DNA of 32,367 bases from positions 1 through 32,367 of the forward strand of contig JAGLOZ010000043.1 of assembly GCA_023137595.1 (NCBI GenBank), read 5' to 3'. Origin of the DNA: Minisyncoccota bacterium. Lineage in GTDB: Bacteria; Patescibacteriota; Minisyncoccia; JAHIHE01; JAGLIN01. The notes beneath the pieces are model-generated. The model saw nothing but the letters and a program-made list of their open reading frames with translations. It made no database searches and was not told the DNA's origin. This document shows positions 8,736 through 24,680 of the stretch, piece by piece. Each line of letters starts with the position of its first letter. Position 1 is the stretch's first letter. The position numbers and the translations under genes are program-made.

Positions 8736-9179
8736 ATGCAATACTCTGTTCCACAATTTTTAGACGTAGAAGATAAAGTAGTCGGTCCGTTTACGGGCAA
8801 GCAGGCGCTTTTTATGATCATTGGATTCGGGGTTTTGCTCATCTCGTTTACTTTTTTCCGCATTTCCTTTTTTATTGTTATTGCTATCCCTACGATAATA
8901 CTTACTCTGGCTTTTGCTTTTTGGAAGCCAAAAGGATTTACAGTTTCAAGATGGATGACAAATATAATAAATTATTATACCACTCCGCATTTTTATGTTT
9001 GGAGAAGAGAGCCTGATTCAAAAATGTTTAAGCAAACTCAAAGAAAACAATCGTCTAAAGAGGTTCAAGCAATTCCGATATCAAAAAACAGAATAAAGGA
9101 ATTGGCATGGCTGCTTGATACGAGTACTTCCGTTAGCATGTCGTATGAAGCAAAAGCAAGACCAAAGGAGAAAATATAA
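8736..9179 (+). CDS. PrgI family T4SS protein
   Basis: 147 aa: MQYSVPQFLDVEDKVVGPFTGKQALFMIIGFGVLL, two TM helices, then FWKPKGFTVSRWM; position next to TraC/VirB4 genes. Confidence 0.8.
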   Translation: MQYSVPQFLDVEDKVVGPFTGKQALFMIIGFGVLLISFTFFRISFFIVIAIPTIILTLAFAFWKPKGFTVSRWMTNIINYYTTPHFYVWRREPDSKMFKQTQRKQSSKEVQAIPISKNRIKELAWLLDTSTSVSMSYEAKARPKEKI

Positions 9180-9222
9180 TTCTATTGTTCCATTGCTATA
9201 TTGTTCTATTGTTAATATTGCC
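9180..9222. repeat. Left arm of ATTGTTA-unit inverted repeat flanking the four-helix-bundle gene
   Basis: ttctattgttccattgctatattgttctattgttaatattgcc resembles the reverse complement of 9597-9647. Confidence 0.75.
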
Positions 9223-9227
9223 AGAAT

Positions 9228-9605
9228 ATGGAAAAGAAATTTTTAAAACTAAATGATTTAGACGCATATAAAATATCTTTTCATCTGTCAAATTATATTT
9301 GGGATATAATAATAAATTGGGACTATTTTGCGAAAGATACCGTTGGCAAACAATTCGTAAGATCAATTGATTCAATTTCAGCCAATATTGCCGAAGGATT
9401 TGGAAGATATAACAAAAAGGATAAAATAAAATTCTACAGATATAGCTTTGGTTCATTAAAGGAATCTTTAGATTGGAATGAAAAAGCAAAAATTAGAAAA
9501 CTTCTCACAGAAGAACAATACAATCATATTTTAGAAGAATTACAAAGATTACCCAAAGAGCTTAACTGGCTCATAAAATTCACTAACGAAAAATTAACAA
9601 TATAG
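9228..9605 (+). CDS. Four-helix-bundle protein, S23 / 23S rRNA intervening-sequence protein-like
   Basis: 125 aa: LDAYKISFHLSNYIW, KQFVRSIDSISANIAEGFGRYNKKDKIKFYRYSFGSLKES is characteristic of this family. Confidence 0.88.
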   Translation: MEKKFLKLNDLDAYKISFHLSNYIWDIIINWDYFAKDTVGKQFVRSIDSISANIAEGFGRYNKKDKIKFYRYSFGSLKESLDWNEKAKIRKLLTEEQYNHILEELQRLPKELNWLIKFTNEKLTI

Positions 9606-9647
9606 CGATAGAACAATACAACAATTTAACAATATAACAATAGAATT
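9597..9647. repeat. Right arm of ATTGTTA-unit inverted repeat flanking the four-helix-bundle gene
   Basis: acaatatagcgatagaacaatacaacaatttaacaatataacaatagaatt; outer end aatag/ctatt complementary to the left arm. Confidence 0.75.
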
Positions 9648-9648
9648 T

Positions 9649-10320
9649 ATGTCCACTCCGGAAAAACAAAATAAAAAAGGTCTAAGCACTCAAAAGTATC
9701 TTGAAATTGCTGAGATAAAAGACGGCATTGTCCTTATGAAAAATGGAAGCATGAAGGCTGTCTTAATGGTTTCGTCAATAAATTTTGCTCTCAAGTCTAT
9801 AGACGAGCAAGACGCTATAATTTATCATTATCAAAGTTTTCTGAATTCTCTTGATTTTACAATACAAATAGTGATAAACTCAAGGCAATTAAACCTTGAT
9901 AATTATTTGCAAGTTTTGAAAGAACAGGAGAAAAAGCAGAGGAATGAGCTTCTTCGCATGCAAACTTCAAGTTATATAGAATATATTCAGGGATTGGTCA
10001 AAATGGCTAATATTGTAAGCAAGACATTCTATATCGTTGTTCCGTTCTCAGCATCAGACGCGAAAGGAGGAGCTTTATTGGCTTTAAAGGGAAAGATAAA
10101 AACTTCAAACTTAATTTCAAGTCGAGCGACTTTTGAAAAGTATAAGGACCAGTTATTTCAAAGGGTAGATCACGTAATAGAAAATTTATCCGGAACCGGG
10201 CTCCGAATGACGATGCTTAACACGCAAGAATTAATTGAACTCTATTATAGCTTGTATAATCCTGAAATTTCTGAGAAGAAAGGACTTGCGGATATGGCCG
10301 ATCTTGATTTGGCTAGATAA
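9649..10320 (+). CDS. TraC N-terminal-like T4SS protein
   Basis: 223 aa: KYLEIAEIKDGIVLMKNGSMKAVLMVSSINFALKS, position between PrgI- and VirB4-like genes. Confidence 0.65.
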   Translation: MSTPEKQNKKGLSTQKYLEIAEIKDGIVLMKNGSMKAVLMVSSINFALKSIDEQDAIIYHYQSFLNSLDFTIQIVINSRQLNLDNYLQVLKEQEKKQRNELLRMQTSSYIEYIQGLVKMANIVSKTFYIVVPFSASDAKGGALLALKGKIKTSNLISSRATFEKYKDQLFQRVDHVIENLSGTGLRMTMLNTQELIELYYSLYNPEISEKKGLADMADLDLAR

Positions 10321-10370
10321 GATGTAATTTCCAATTCTCAATTTCCAATTACTGAATTTCCAAACGCTAT

Positions 10371-10555
10371 TGTCATTGCGAGAAATGAAACGGAGCGATA
10401 GCGAAGTGAAATGATACCGCACCAAGCACGGCACAAGCTCCGCAATCCCGAGATTAGTATCGTATAATATTATATTACGGTTTAATGTTCGTAGTTTCGG
10501 GATTGCTGCGTTGGCTTTTCTCTCACTTCACTTGTTCAGCCTCCTCGCAATGACA
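10371..10555. repeat. ~185-bp MITE-like element, copy 1
   Basis: TGTCATTGCGAG (10371-10382) and CTCGCAATGACA (10544-10555) are perfect 12-bp terminal inverted repeats; second copy in inverted orientation at 27829-28016. Confidence 0.88.
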
Positions 10556-10570
10556 ATTTGAAAATTGAAG

Positions 10571-10613
10571 ATTTAATCATTATTTACAAAATTTAAAAAT
10601 TTAAAAATTATAA
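10571..10613. repeat. AT-rich repeat copy upstream of virB4
   Basis: atttaatcattatttacaaaatttaaaaatttaaaaattataaa, near-match to 8691-8730. Confidence 0.6.
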
Positions 10614-10616
10614 AAT

Positions 10617-12452
10617 ATGTCTTTCTTGAACAAACTATCATCAAAAAAAAGCAAAACAGTAAAGTCGCAAGGGTCTTCTGAAAAAGCGACTCTTTTGGAG
10701 TCTGAAAAAATATACCAAAAAGGACTTGCAACTGTAAAAGATATTATCGCTCCTGCCGCTTTTAAAATTGAAAGCGACCATATAATGATCAACAAAAAAC
10801 TTGCTTCCATCGTGTTTGTATATGCTTATCCGAGATTTCTTCAGACAAATTGGTTTTCTCCAATTATAAATCTTGATACTACTTTTGATGTTGCTATGTT
10901 TATCCATCCGCAAAATACCGCTGAAATATTAAAAACTCTTCGTAGAACTGTTACGCAGATTCAGTCGCAAATGTCAATGAACGAAGAAAAGGGAATAGTT
11001 CGAGATCCGATTCTGGAAACTGCGTATCAGGATATAGAAGGGCTTAGAGATGATCTTCAACAGGGTATTGAGCATTTCTTCCAATTTGGTCTTTACATAA
11101 CAATATACGCGGATACAAAAGAACAACTAAAGAAAATTGAAACTCAAATAGAATCAACTTTGGAGGCAAAGCTTATTTATATGAAACCTGCCATTATGCA
11201 AATGGAAGAAGGCTTCAATTCAACATTGCCGCTTGGAAGCGATAAATTGATGATAGGCAATAATATGAATACTTCTCCACTGTCAACTACATTTCCTTTT
11301 GTTTCAAGCGATCTAACCTCTAACCAAGGAATATTGTATGGAATTAACAGGCATAATAATAGTTTGATCTTATTTGATAGATTTTCAATGGAAAACGCGA
11401 ATATGGTTATTTTTGCCAAATCTGGCGCTGGAAAAAGTTATGCCGTAAAACTTGAAATTCTGAGAAGCTTGATGATGGAAGCCGATGTTATAGTCGTTGA
11501 TCCTGAAGATGAATATAGGCATCTTTGCGAAACAGTTGGAGGATCTTTTATGAGAATTGCCCTGTCTTCAAAACATCATATAAATCCTTTTGATCTGCCG
11601 ACAGCGATTGGAGATGAAACGGCGGCTGATGTTTTGCGAAAAGCAATCGCTGATATCGCGGGGCTTATCAAAGTTATGCTTGGAAAGATCTCTGCTGATG
11701 AAGATTCTATTTTGGACAAAGCAATCGCGGAAACTTATGCTATCAAAGACATAACTCCTGAAGCTGATTTTACCGATCTTGAACCTCCTGTAATGGGTGA
11801 TTTGCAGACGGTGCTGGAAAATATGAAGGGAGCAGAAAGTCTTTCTACCAGAATCAAAAAATATACCGAAGGGACATTTGCCGGATTTTTAAATCATAAA
11901 ACGAATATCAGCATTGATACCGGAATGGTTGTTTTTAATATCCGCGATATGGAAGAAGAATTGCGTCCAGTGGCCATGTATCTGGTTCTGCATTATATTT
12001 GGACATTGATAAGGTCAAAAATGAAAAAAAGAGTAATGGTTGTTGATGAGGCGTGGGTTATGATGCAACATGAAGACGCGGCTTCTTTCCTTTTCGGCAT
12101 CGCGAAAAGATGCAGGAAATATTTTTTAGGCTTGACTACGATCACTCAGGATGTAACTGATTTTATGACTTCAAAATATGGCAAGCCGATCGTTACAAAT
12201 TCATCAATTCAGCTCTTGCTCAAACAGTCTACGGCGGCTATCAAGGTCATAGTTGATACATTTTATCTTACTGATGAAGAGAAATTCTTGCTTCTAGAAA
12301 GCAATATCGGAGAAGGAATTTTCTTTGCCGGTTCAAAGCGCGCCGCGATAAGAATCGTCGCATCTTACTCCGAAGATCAAATTATAACTTCTGATCCGGA
12401 ACAGCTTCTTGAGATCAAAAAAGCAAAAGAAGAGATCAAAGAGATGGCATAG
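10617..12452 (+). CDS. virB4: VirB4/TraC-family T4SS ATPase
   Basis: Walker A FAKSGAGKSYAVK, Walker B KKRVMVVDEAWVMM, SDLTSNQGILYGINRHN, ITQDVTDFM. Confidence 0.93.
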   Translation: MSFLNKLSSKKSKTVKSQGSSEKATLLESEKIYQKGLATVKDIIAPAAFKIESDHIMINKKLASIVFVYAYPRFLQTNWFSPIINLDTTFDVAMFIHPQNTAEILKTLRRTVTQIQSQMSMNEEKGIVRDPILETAYQDIEGLRDDLQQGIEHFFQFGLYITIYADTKEQLKKIETQIESTLEAKLIYMKPAIMQMEEGFNSTLPLGSDKLMIGNNMNTSPLSTTFPFVSSDLTSNQGILYGINRHNNSLILFDRFSMENANMVIFAKSGAGKSYAVKLEILRSLMMEADVIVVDPEDEYRHLCETVGGSFMRIALSSKHHINPFDLPTAIGDETAADVLRKAIADIAGLIKVMLGKISADEDSILDKAIAETYAIKDITPEADFTDLEPPVMGDLQTVLENMKGAESLSTRIKKYTEGTFAGFLNHKTNISIDTGMVVFNIRDMEEELRPVAMYLVLHYIWTLIRSKMKKRVMVVDEAWVMMQHEDAASFLFGIAKRCRKYFLGLTTITQDVTDFMTSKYGKPIVTNSSIQLLLKQSTAAIKVIVDTFYLTDEEKFLLLESNIGEGIFFAGSKRAAIRIVASYSEDQIITSDPEQLLEIKKAKEEIKEMA

Positions 12453-17035: not shown

Positions 17036-19162
17036 TTATTCATCCGAAGTCATCAAATCAACCATCAAAAAGACGCTGTCTTTTGAGGTCGCAAAAACTA
17101 AAATGTCATTATAAATAAAATAATCCAAAGCGGTTTCTTTGTCTATCAAGCTAATATATTTTATCTTAACATCTTTATAATATGTTTCTGACAGAGGGAC
17201 GAAAACATCTTCAAAATTTTTATCATCTATGAACAATGGCTTTAAAACCGAAGTCATTTTTTTATTTTTTGTTCTCTCTTGTTCCCACGATTCCATTATT
17301 GCAGACATAGAATCTGCATCGCTTGTTTTTACGGCTAATCCGTATCTAAGCGAATTTTTGCCGGTTTGAAATATAAATAAATTATAATTATTTGTAGATA
17401 TTTCTAAAAAGTTTTTTGGAAGATGGTTTACACCTTCTCCAATATCTATTATGCCGATAGTATTAAGAGCTTCTTCCAGTGATAATATATTTTTTTCCGT
17501 GTCGTTGTCAATTATAATTAACTTTATGATTTTTATATTCGCGTCAGAACTAAAAATTTCTTCTGCCTTTATCTTTAACCAAGCATCATTTCCCTTTAAG
17601 TTGTTTTTTTCAATAATTATCTTTTTTTCCAGATTCATAAATTTTTCAAGTTCTTTTCCTGAAGTGTCAACCGGTATTCGTATGACCGGCGGTTCTGGCG
17701 GGAAAAGAAGTGTTACGGCATAAAAAGATCCAACTATCAATGCGATTAAAGTTAAAGAAACGAGAATAATTCTTTTCCATGGCAAGGAAAACAATTTTAT
17801 GTGATATTTTTGTATTATACTCTTTTTTAATTTTTTGTATTCATCTTCTTTCGTAATAATCTTTTTCTGTTTTTTTATTTTTGTGGCATCCTTCAACTCT
17901 TCCAACTCATCTTTTTCTTCTTTTAGTTTTATTCTCTTTGAAACGGAACTATAGTACTTTTGTTTTCCGTGTATTAATCTTTCGTTAGGTGGTGTGTAGC
18001 TTCTGTCATAGTAAGCTTTTTTTGATAGACTTTCTTTTTGAGATACTTCTTTTTGTTCTGCATTTTTATTATCTCGCAGCACTCCCGATCGACTGGCGAA
18101 TTCTTTTGTCTTGCTGTGATCATTAACCTTAATGTCAGAAATTTTCTTTTTACTGCTAAGCGCGTTGATTTTTTCTGAATCGCTGGGTTTTTTTAACTTT
18201 TCTGAAATATTTTTCCAAAAAGAATTTTTCGGTTTTTTTGATGAAAGAGCTGGGGCGGTTATTTCTTCTTTTTCAACTTGTTCTTTTTCAATCTGTTTTT
18301 CTACGATTTGATCTTGTTGAATATTTTGTTCAGGTTCCTGAGCCAAGGGTATCGTTTTTTCGCTTGCTATATTTTCTTCTTTTTCAACTTGTTCTTTTTC
18401 AATCTGTTTTTCTACGATTTGATCTTGTTGAATATTTTGTTCAGGTTCCTGAGCCAAGGGTATCGTTTTTTCGCTTGCTATATTTTCTTCTTTCGCTTTT
18501 TCTAGATCTTTAATTTTATTTTCTGGTTTTTTTTCAACGCTGGGCTCCGGTTTTGAAATTCTGTATATTAGCCTTTTTAATTTATCTATATCGCCTGTAT
18601 TCTTATCATCAACTTCTTTTTCTGCCGGCTCGTCTACAGTTTCTTTTGATATATCCTCTTTTTTTGTTTCGGGTACACTTTTGTTTTCATCGGCAAGTTC
18701 ATCAACTATCGCTGTTTCTTCTGTTATAATATCCTTTTTTTCTGCTTGCGGTATAGTTGCTATTTCTTCTTCTTTTTCCGTCCTGCCTTCACTATCTGAG
18801 TCTTTGTCTGTCTCATTTGATATTCTTTTTATAAGTTCTTTCAGTTGGTCGTCTTGACCGCTGGTTGGTTTGATCAAAGGCGCATTGGAAGAGGTGTCGC
18901 TGAGAGGTTCCAGAACCGGCTTTTCTTTTATTTCCGGTTGTTTGTCGTCTGACCTTGCCGGCTGTTGTTGCATATCAGAACGAACAACCTGTGAAGGATC
19001 AGGATTTATGGGTTGAGTTGAGTTTAATTGAGCAGATGGTTGCTGTATTTTTTTTGCGTCAACTTCAATTGCCGGCTTTTGTTGTTTATCTTGCTTTGTT
19101 GAATTGTTTTTTATATCCTTAAGGTCGTCCTGCATTGTTCTTATTTTTGCGCCATTTTTCAT
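17036..19162 (-). CDS. Large single-TM protein with low-complexity N-terminal region and C-terminal ectodomain, unknown function
   Basis: 708-aa ORF; TM IILVSLTLIALIVGSFYAVTLLF; acidic/lysine-rich N-terminal region. Confidence 0.8.
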   Translation of the reverse strand: MKNGAKIRTMQDDLKDIKNNSTKQDKQQKPAIEVDAKKIQQPSAQLNSTQPINPDPSQVVRSDMQQQPARSDDKQPEIKEKPVLEPLSDTSSNAPLIKPTSGQDDQLKELIKRISNETDKDSDSEGRTEKEEEIATIPQAEKKDIITEETAIVDELADENKSVPETKKEDISKETVDEPAEKEVDDKNTGDIDKLKRLIYRISKPEPSVEKKPENKIKDLEKAKEENIASEKTIPLAQEPEQNIQQDQIVEKQIEKEQVEKEENIASEKTIPLAQEPEQNIQQDQIVEKQIEKEQVEKEEITAPALSSKKPKNSFWKNISEKLKKPSDSEKINALSSKKKISDIKVNDHSKTKEFASRSGVLRDNKNAEQKEVSQKESLSKKAYYDRSYTPPNERLIHGKQKYYSSVSKRIKLKEEKDELEELKDATKIKKQKKIITKEDEYKKLKKSIIQKYHIKLFSLPWKRIILVSLTLIALIVGSFYAVTLLFPPEPPVIRIPVDTSGKELEKFMNLEKKIIIEKNNLKGNDAWLKIKAEEIFSSDANIKIIKLIIIDNDTEKNILSLEEALNTIGIIDIGEGVNHLPKNFLEISTNNYNLFIFQTGKNSLRYGLAVKTSDADSMSAIMESWEQERTKNKKMTSVLKPLFIDDKNFEDVFVPLSETYYKDVKIKYISLIDKETALDYFIYNDILVFATSKDSVFLMVDLMTSDE
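18265..18486. repeat. Perfect 111-bp tandem duplication, two copies plus partial third start
   Basis: 18265-18375 and 18376-18486 read as identical; 37-aa unit EENIASEKTIPLAQEPEQNIQQDQIVEKQIEKEQVEK twice. Confidence 0.93.
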
Positions 19163-23253: not shown

Positions 23254-23331
23254 ATTGTTAAATTGTTCTATTGCTAAACTGCTAAACTGTTTTTAATAAT
23301 AACAATATAGCAATGTAACAATGTAACAATT
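23254..23331. repeat. Solo ATTGTTA-unit inverted repeat without a gene
   Basis: aaattgttaaattgttctattgcta ... caatatagcaatgtaacaatgtaacaattt, same unit vocabulary as 9180-9222/9597-9647. Confidence 0.7.
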
Positions 23332-24499: not shown

Positions 24500-24680
24500 C
24501 CATTCTGCCAACAAATTAGTAAACATCTACAGGAATAACAAGGCGCTATTTTTCAGAAATTATATAAAATATAATAGCACAAAAAAGTCAAATAGACAAG
24601 CGGCGTATTATGTCGTAAAATGAAGTTATATCGCTCTATTGTTCTGTCGCTATATTGTTAAAACTATCAAAATAAAAAAC

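Follow-up and report, generated by a model that had tools for sequence, protein, structure and literature searches.

A four-helix-bundle gene between inverted octamer arrays in a patescibacterial secretion operon is likely to be one copy of a compact mobile element

The gene, its arms and the surrounding operon

Our analysis of a window of 32,367 nucleotides (contig JAGLOZ010000043.1 of the Minisyncoccota assembly GCA_023137595.1, called the focal genome below) concerns a unit of about 470 bp at positions 9180-9647, in the gap between prgI and the N-terminal virB4 ORF (virB4N), that consists of a four-helix-bundle gene and flanking inverted arrays of ATTGTTnn/AACAATnn units. The features of the window that bear on it are the following.

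8736-9179, plus strand: prgI-family gene, the upstream host (PF12666, E=2.3e-9), with an orthologue 5' of the junction in 11 relatives
9180-9215, plus strand: left arm, four ATTGTTnn/ATTGCTnn units at 8-nt spacing (arm-to-arm score reached by 0 of 5000 shuffles)
9228-9605, plus strand: four-helix-bundle gene, 125 aa (PF05635 23S_rRNA_IVP, E=3.5e-23; TIGR02436, E=4.4e-23)
9592-9647, plus strand: right arm, about six AACAATnn units, inverted relative to the left arm (sequence and shuffle test)
9649-10320, plus strand: VirB4-like N-terminal ORF, the downstream host (N-terminal matches to NF045975/NF045971), kept in 12 of 14 genomes of the family
10617-12452, plus strand: VirB4/TraC-type ATPase of the same operon (NF045971, E=1.5e-108)
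23254-23330, no strand assigned: gene-less pair of ATTGTT/AACAAT units in inverted orientation (ATTGTTaaATTGTTctATTGCT ... AACAATatAGCAATgtAACAATgtAACAAT) between two minus-strand ORFs (from sequence)
24625-24661, minus strand: single degenerate array of ATTGTT-type units (from sequence)

The first-pass annotation had described an S23/IVP-like gene that interrupts a secretion operon and is bracketed by arms of degenerate inverted units, and each part of this description held. The reading frame is intact, and in the profile search its product scores 82.3 bits against PF05635 and 81.6 against TIGR02436, above the curated cut-offs of 33.8 and 24, respectively; the gene lies between prgI and the VirB4-type N-terminal ORF, with the ATPase proper beyond. 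The stop codon of prgI directly adjoins the left arm, which reads ATTGTTcc ATTGCTat ATTGTTct ATTGTT, while the right arm begins within the final codons of the gene (AAATTAACAATATAG, from 9592) and ends 1 nt 5' of the next start codon. Aligned in inverted orientation, positions 9178-9213 and 9612-9647 pair at 31 of 36 positions (86%), and the arm-to-arm local-alignment score of 23.5 is also reached by none of 1229 placements of the same geometry elsewhere in the window. A profile search of the element returned PF05635 as its sole match and no recognised transposase or recombinase, and a promoter scan of the focal region gave 6 matches against 5.6 in shuffles, i.e. no excess. Two other repeats were seen in the window: the gap between the two VirB4 ORFs (10321-10616) holds an imperfect palindrome of a separate repeat family, with ends CATTGCGAG...CTCGCAATGAC, and in a 708-aa ORF on the minus strand (17036-19162) about 38 residues are duplicated in tandem, almost perfectly (EENIASEKTIPLAQEPEQNIQQDQIVEKQIEKEQVEK).

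Filled, empty and decayed versions of the same gaps

The prgI-virB4N junction was located in 12 genomes of the same family, the focal genome included, and empty PrgI-side junctions were looked for among them. The gap is nearly empty in two relatives (30 bp in G012 and 37 bp in G007), and others hold different elements or remnants: two genomes of genus g3 carry a different PF05635 gene with arms of the TCCAAATT/AATTTGGA type, G009 has a PF05635 gene with an internal deletion and AGTATC/AATACT-type arms, and G008 and G006 retain leftovers of the 3' end of the focal element. The pilB-pilC gap is short in the focal genome (5 nt), in G003 (9 nt) and in G012 (about 23 nt); it contains a GAATTA-type element in G002, and a frameshifted element of the focal ATTGTT type in G004, a congener of G003 as well as of G002; G001 has a deletion derivative there, with TTTTAACA arms. 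The arrays are absent from the empty gaps.

A second copy of the focal element is present in the focal genome, and a focal-like element lies at an unrelated locus in G014, a member of another GTDB family, with DNA identities of 89% in the gene, 65-75% in the arms and 40-46% in the flanks. Because the PNPase proteins of the focal genome and G014 are also 78% identical, this copy is not by itself proof of recent transfer; as a matter of sequence comparison, it is evidence that the element has moved between sites. One site is thus found in filled and empty versions and the same unit at unrelated sites, as is generally asked of a mobile element. At the level of aligned genomes, these gaps, empty or holding unrelated elements in relatives, show gene and arms to be one transferable unit, and 9180-9647 is very likely to be a mobile unit of this kind.

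In plasmid gaps, empty versions are 90-97% identical to the filled ones. The filled site on Trichormus plasmid C reads AAAAAGTAA-element-GTAATTAAC, and its 97%-identical empty counterparts read AAAAAGTAATTAAC. Comparison of L386 with L395 and L404 gives a target duplication of GTAA or GTAAT (4-5 nt), the sole clear case; for the pairs L384, L389, L390, L407 and L408, insertion or loss is proven with no clean duplication. The TTAG and TCTA duplications read at L389 and L408 dissolved on closer reading and were rejected, because these letters are also present in the element ends or because the empty relative has diverged too far.

Arms, proteins and loose arrays across the PF05635 family

The arrangement of a gene between inverted arrays is general across PF05635. 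For 148 class PF05635 loci, the left flank was scored against the reverse complement of the right flank, with swapped flanks as the null. The median score was 17.8, against 8.5 for swapped flanks, and 120 of the 148 loci (82%) lay above the swapped 95th percentile while 18% had no detectable arm pair, percentages that hold for well-scoring members since the loci chosen were those ranked highest by domain score. The same threshold was passed by 4% of 402 control ORFs taken from 20 unselected 20-kb stretches, and the top control ORF of 80-180 aa is itself recognisably of the S23 type. Of 242 arms, 214 had their best lag at 7 (mostly) or 8; in the background windows, where the distribution was flat, this was so for 45 of 239. 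Outside the Patescibacteria, 35 of 47 loci pass in a named sample of GTDB genomes (Bacillota, Bacteroidota, Proteobacteria, Planctomycetes and others), with a lag of 7 in 51 and of 8 in 17 of their 70 arms, and the elements on cyanobacterial plasmids have textbook heptamer arms (AGGGTGT, AGTAGGG, ACAGGGA, AGCTAAA). Phages gave no S23 match. L091 and L218 are PF05635 elements within 16S rRNA genes, near the 5' end, with arms of the AGCTGAAA and AACAATT types, respectively. The suggestion of the first-pass annotation that the segment is a transferable gene plus arms is supported: neither of the conditions that it named as refuting, a lack of empty sites and a lack of such arms around further members of the family, holds. 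Its link to rRNA intervening sequences is upheld by these two sampled copies with arms of the same kind.

Members of the family were also seen in some unusual settings. On plasmid-borne CRISPR loci, the cas6-cas4 gap holds PF05635 elements with differing arms in Anabaena sp. 90 (type I-D) and in Pseudanabaena galeata (L388, L393). One element (L171, G036:C18:2266-2580) seemingly lies in sense within a Hint/intein-like coding sequence, surrounded by long AGGAGCT-type heptamer arrays. In two families of the order, tRNA genes have an element with ATAACTTATAAC-type arms between them (L015 and L081), which suggests a subfamily with a tRNA-operon niche.

Arm similarity was compared between pairs of loci with non-homologous flanks, binned by protein identity. 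The share of pairs with similar arms was 82% above a protein identity of 0.8, 48% at 0.7-0.8, 16% at 0.6-0.7, 6% at 0.5-0.6 and about 0-1% below 0.5. The closer two proteins at unrelated sites are, the more alike their arms, so the arms travel with the gene. Judged from sequence, such co-diversification would be expected from recognition of the arms by the protein or from mere joint travel of the two; on the strength of it we lean towards the view that the four-helix-bundle protein recognises its own arms.

To our knowledge, S23/IVP proteins have been assigned no function, although structures have been solved. The AlphaFold2 model of the focal protein (pLDDT 95) retrieved 2GSC (TM 0.85), 2RLD (0.74) and then the Avd protein of diversity-generating retroelements (DGR). 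DGR Avd is a pentamer. The closest hit, 2GSC, is a homopentamer (PMC4990558). Arms mostly have 3-5 units, the numbers dropping after 5, and these counts fit a pentamer; because the solved relatives are pentameric and arm units fall off after 5, a ring in which each subunit contacts one unit is an appealing, though hypothetical, arrangement. In 157 sequences, mostly from arm-bearing loci, residues Q42, R45, S49, N53, E56, G57, S76 and E79 are 91-99% conserved. Within helix limits taken from the predicted structure, Q42, R45, S49, N53 and E56 lie on helix 33-58, and their spacing suggests that they share one face of it; S76 and E79 lie on helix 63-89. The conserved polar residues are absent from the three DGR-type Avds that could be aligned, and the DGR-type Avds tested have no convincing arms, the one that scores just above the threshold (13.0) being without period-7 units.

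Heptameric repeats are over-represented in bacterial genomes and have gone unexplained for decades. The ATTGTT/AACAAT arm units of the focal element also occur away from the four-helix-bundle gene, often just 5' of start codons: a pattern of three AACAATNN units, with at most 2 mismatches, has 146 matches in the 1.1-Mb focal genome, among them inverted pairs that enclose a short core and no gene. The pair at 23254-23330 is a candidate non-autonomous derivative. Gene-less pairs elsewhere in the focal genome resemble it in having a TATGCATAGCA-like core. Across 36 genomes, the median density of period-7/8 arrays was 0, 5 and 15 per 100 kb in those with 0, 1-5 and at least 6 PF05635 copies, respectively (Spearman rho 0.46, p=0.004, against rho 0.01 for other periods), a coarse measure, taken on arbitrary stretches of 16-100 kb per genome and with a statistic that takes no account of phylogeny; shuffled sequence contained no such arrays. 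These observations suggest that PF05635 elements are one source of the unexplained bacterial heptamer repeats. A possible link to the published heptamer families is drawn from the rise of array density with copy number and from the heptamer arms on cyanobacterial plasmids; arrays of TAACTGA, GGGAATC and known cyanobacterial heptamers were not found in the PF05635 loci examined.

Insertion, alternative explanations and known systems

The explanation that we consider best overall, and likely, is that 9180-9647 is one copy of a compact mobile element. Such an element would consist of tandem 7-8-nt units, a promoter-poor S23/PF05635 gene and the same units inverted, and would enter an operon gap in sense, so that expression of its gene would depend on transcription of the operon. 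A ring-like pentamer, as in the solved relatives, may recognise the element's own arm units, 3-5 per arm, and so bring the ends together. Insertion would probably proceed by cutting and joining of DNA with a short target duplication; the DNA would be cut by a nuclease of the host or by the protein itself, through an unrecognised site (Q42, R45, S49, N53, E56 and E79, all near-invariant). Arms that pair in the transcript could be processed by RNase III, as in rRNA intervening sequences, which would limit harm to the host, and the gene-less palindromes would be non-autonomous derivatives. That the four-helix-bundle protein is itself the enzyme we regard as doubtful. The boldest form of the proposal is equally tentative and, as it stands, improbable: a class of minimal elements spread throughout bacteria and so far undescribed, whose heptamer arms would be read by a four-helix-bundle pentamer without any transposase, would be the source of both heptamer repeats and rRNA intervening sequences, and the protein, through the same six residues, would be a new mobility enzyme.

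The protein might instead be a passenger, i.e. cargo or a regulator, with a separate movement enzyme encoded elsewhere. PF05635 has no known nuclease motif, and genes of the PF13366 family (PDDEXK_3, GxxExxY) also lie between inverted unit arms, with 18 of 25 loci above the swapped 95th percentile (L354-L383), so that a PF13366-related nuclease would be one example of such an enzyme. PF13366 was, however, not found in the focal genome, where PF05635 arms and gene-less palindromes are plentiful; it is a different protein with different, looser units (ACGAAT-type, 8-10 nt apart), and the arms co-diversify with the four-helix-bundle protein itself. We therefore find this alternative unlikely, and the PF13366 loci may possibly be a sister class of elements with a nuclease-like gene.

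A second alternative is an element that acts at the RNA level, inserting as RNA or cDNA via a reverse transcriptase in trans, with a relative of DGR Avd and with arms that serve as an RNase III stem. It would account for the strong sense bias in co-directional gaps, where 124 copies are in sense and 6 antisense (the both-sense share of random genes is 207 of 402), at least 4 of the 6 antisense calls being sense on inspection (between tRNAs, in a 16S gene, before a pilin-like gene and inside a Hint-type gene). It also gains from the sense copies inside 16S rRNA and between tRNAs, from the fold common to Avd, from the predicted fold of the focal transcript, in which the arms are paired (z=-3.7), and from the fact that RNase III cuts the Coxiella intervening sequence at its heptamers (PMC4990558); the focal genome carries an RNase III gene. 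Reverse transcriptase (PF00078), however, has no match in the focal genome (94.5% complete) and is found in only 7 of 18 genomes of the order, so that no general association is seen. Sense-only insertion as a universal rule is likewise ruled out, by two antisense cases on cyanobacterial plasmids, and arm mismatches show no excess of G-U-compatible (224) over A-C (282) changes, in a test confounded by A-richness and A-rich leaders. The cleanest empty site, moreover, hints at a short target duplication. Because of the missing G-U bias, the focal genome without reverse transcriptase and the antisense cyanobacterial insertions, we favour insertion at the DNA level, which is the probable course, together with selection for operon expression, and consider the RNA-level alternative quite unlikely.

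It is also conceivable that the arrays came first, as slippage products or translation leaders, and that four-helix-bundle genes merely lie within them. The units are indeed common in the genome without the gene, often directly 5' of start codons, and a role as translational signal has been proposed for the TAACTGA heptamers (PMC4679880). Against this, empty gaps have no arrays, at unrelated loci the arm motif changes with the protein subfamily, the two arms of a locus match each other far better than swapped flanks do and array density tracks PF05635 copy number, which makes this order of events very unlikely. Finally, a host-useful secretion-operon gene, whether regulator or chaperone, retained at the locus is scarcely credible despite its sense orientation and intact frame, since relatives have the same junction without the gene, with a decayed gene or with other subfamilies, and since the family also occurs in pil operons, rRNA and tRNA arrays; as a general explanation, a host gene or domesticated secretion component is refuted by the empty and replaced sites.

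In the mobile-element reading, one small protein family is accompanied by repeat arms of its own in different phyla, and loose arrays are predictably denser where it has more copies; the design that recurs around it could explain unexplained short repeats across bacterial genomes. If this is true, S23 proteins would gain a function, the reading of arms, rRNA intervening sequences would be one target niche of a general element, and the heptamer question would become directly testable in culturable cyanobacteria and Flavobacteria.

Several known systems share features with the element. REP/RAYT and IS/MITE systems likewise combine an autonomous gene with gene-less palindromes that have matching ends, and the focal element has inverted arms, while in the family a 4-5-nt duplication is seen in one clean plasmid pair, the other pairs being ambiguous; the focal element differs from these systems in having no transposase domain and in its ends, which are tandem 7-8-mers that vary with the protein subfamily. 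DGR Avd (4DWL, 8UB7) has the same fold as the focal protein, whereas the DGR-type copies tested have neither the Q-R-S-N-E..E signature nor convincing arms, and there is no DGR at the focal locus. The published heptamer families (cyanobacterial, TAACTGA of Beggiatoaceae and GGGAATC of Xanthomonas) resemble the arms in being intergenic tandem 7-mers near starts, frequently in inverted pairs. Published accounts describe bacterial heptamer arrays without a source (PMC4679880, PMC4692102), with 70 inverted pairs of arrays in X. campestris (PMC4692102) and a scattered distribution of the TAACTGA heptamers that is held to be horizontal (PMC4679880); the passages searched draw no link to PF05635. The open-access literature, subscription journals being beyond reach, yielded no paper that joins intervening sequences, S23 and heptamers or that reports PF05635 elements in operon gaps.

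The closest parallel is with rRNA intervening sequences. That of Coxiella burnetii has tandem GACAGAT heptamers 5' of its ORF and a 28-bp terminal stem and is excised by RNase III (PMC4990558), and rRNA insertions with 23S_rRNA_IVP ORFs have been catalogued in CPR bacteria (PMC11270868). The intervening sequences of Coxiella burnetii, Leptospira and CPR are like the focal element in size (about 430-470 nt), in their PF05635 ORF and in terminal inverted repeats that can form a stem; in the focal element, too, these repeats form a stem with the ORF in the loop. The focal element lies outside any rRNA gene, in an operon gap between protein genes, and its arms are tandem 8-mers. Classic rRNA intervening sequences are the rRNA-inserted members of this class of elements.
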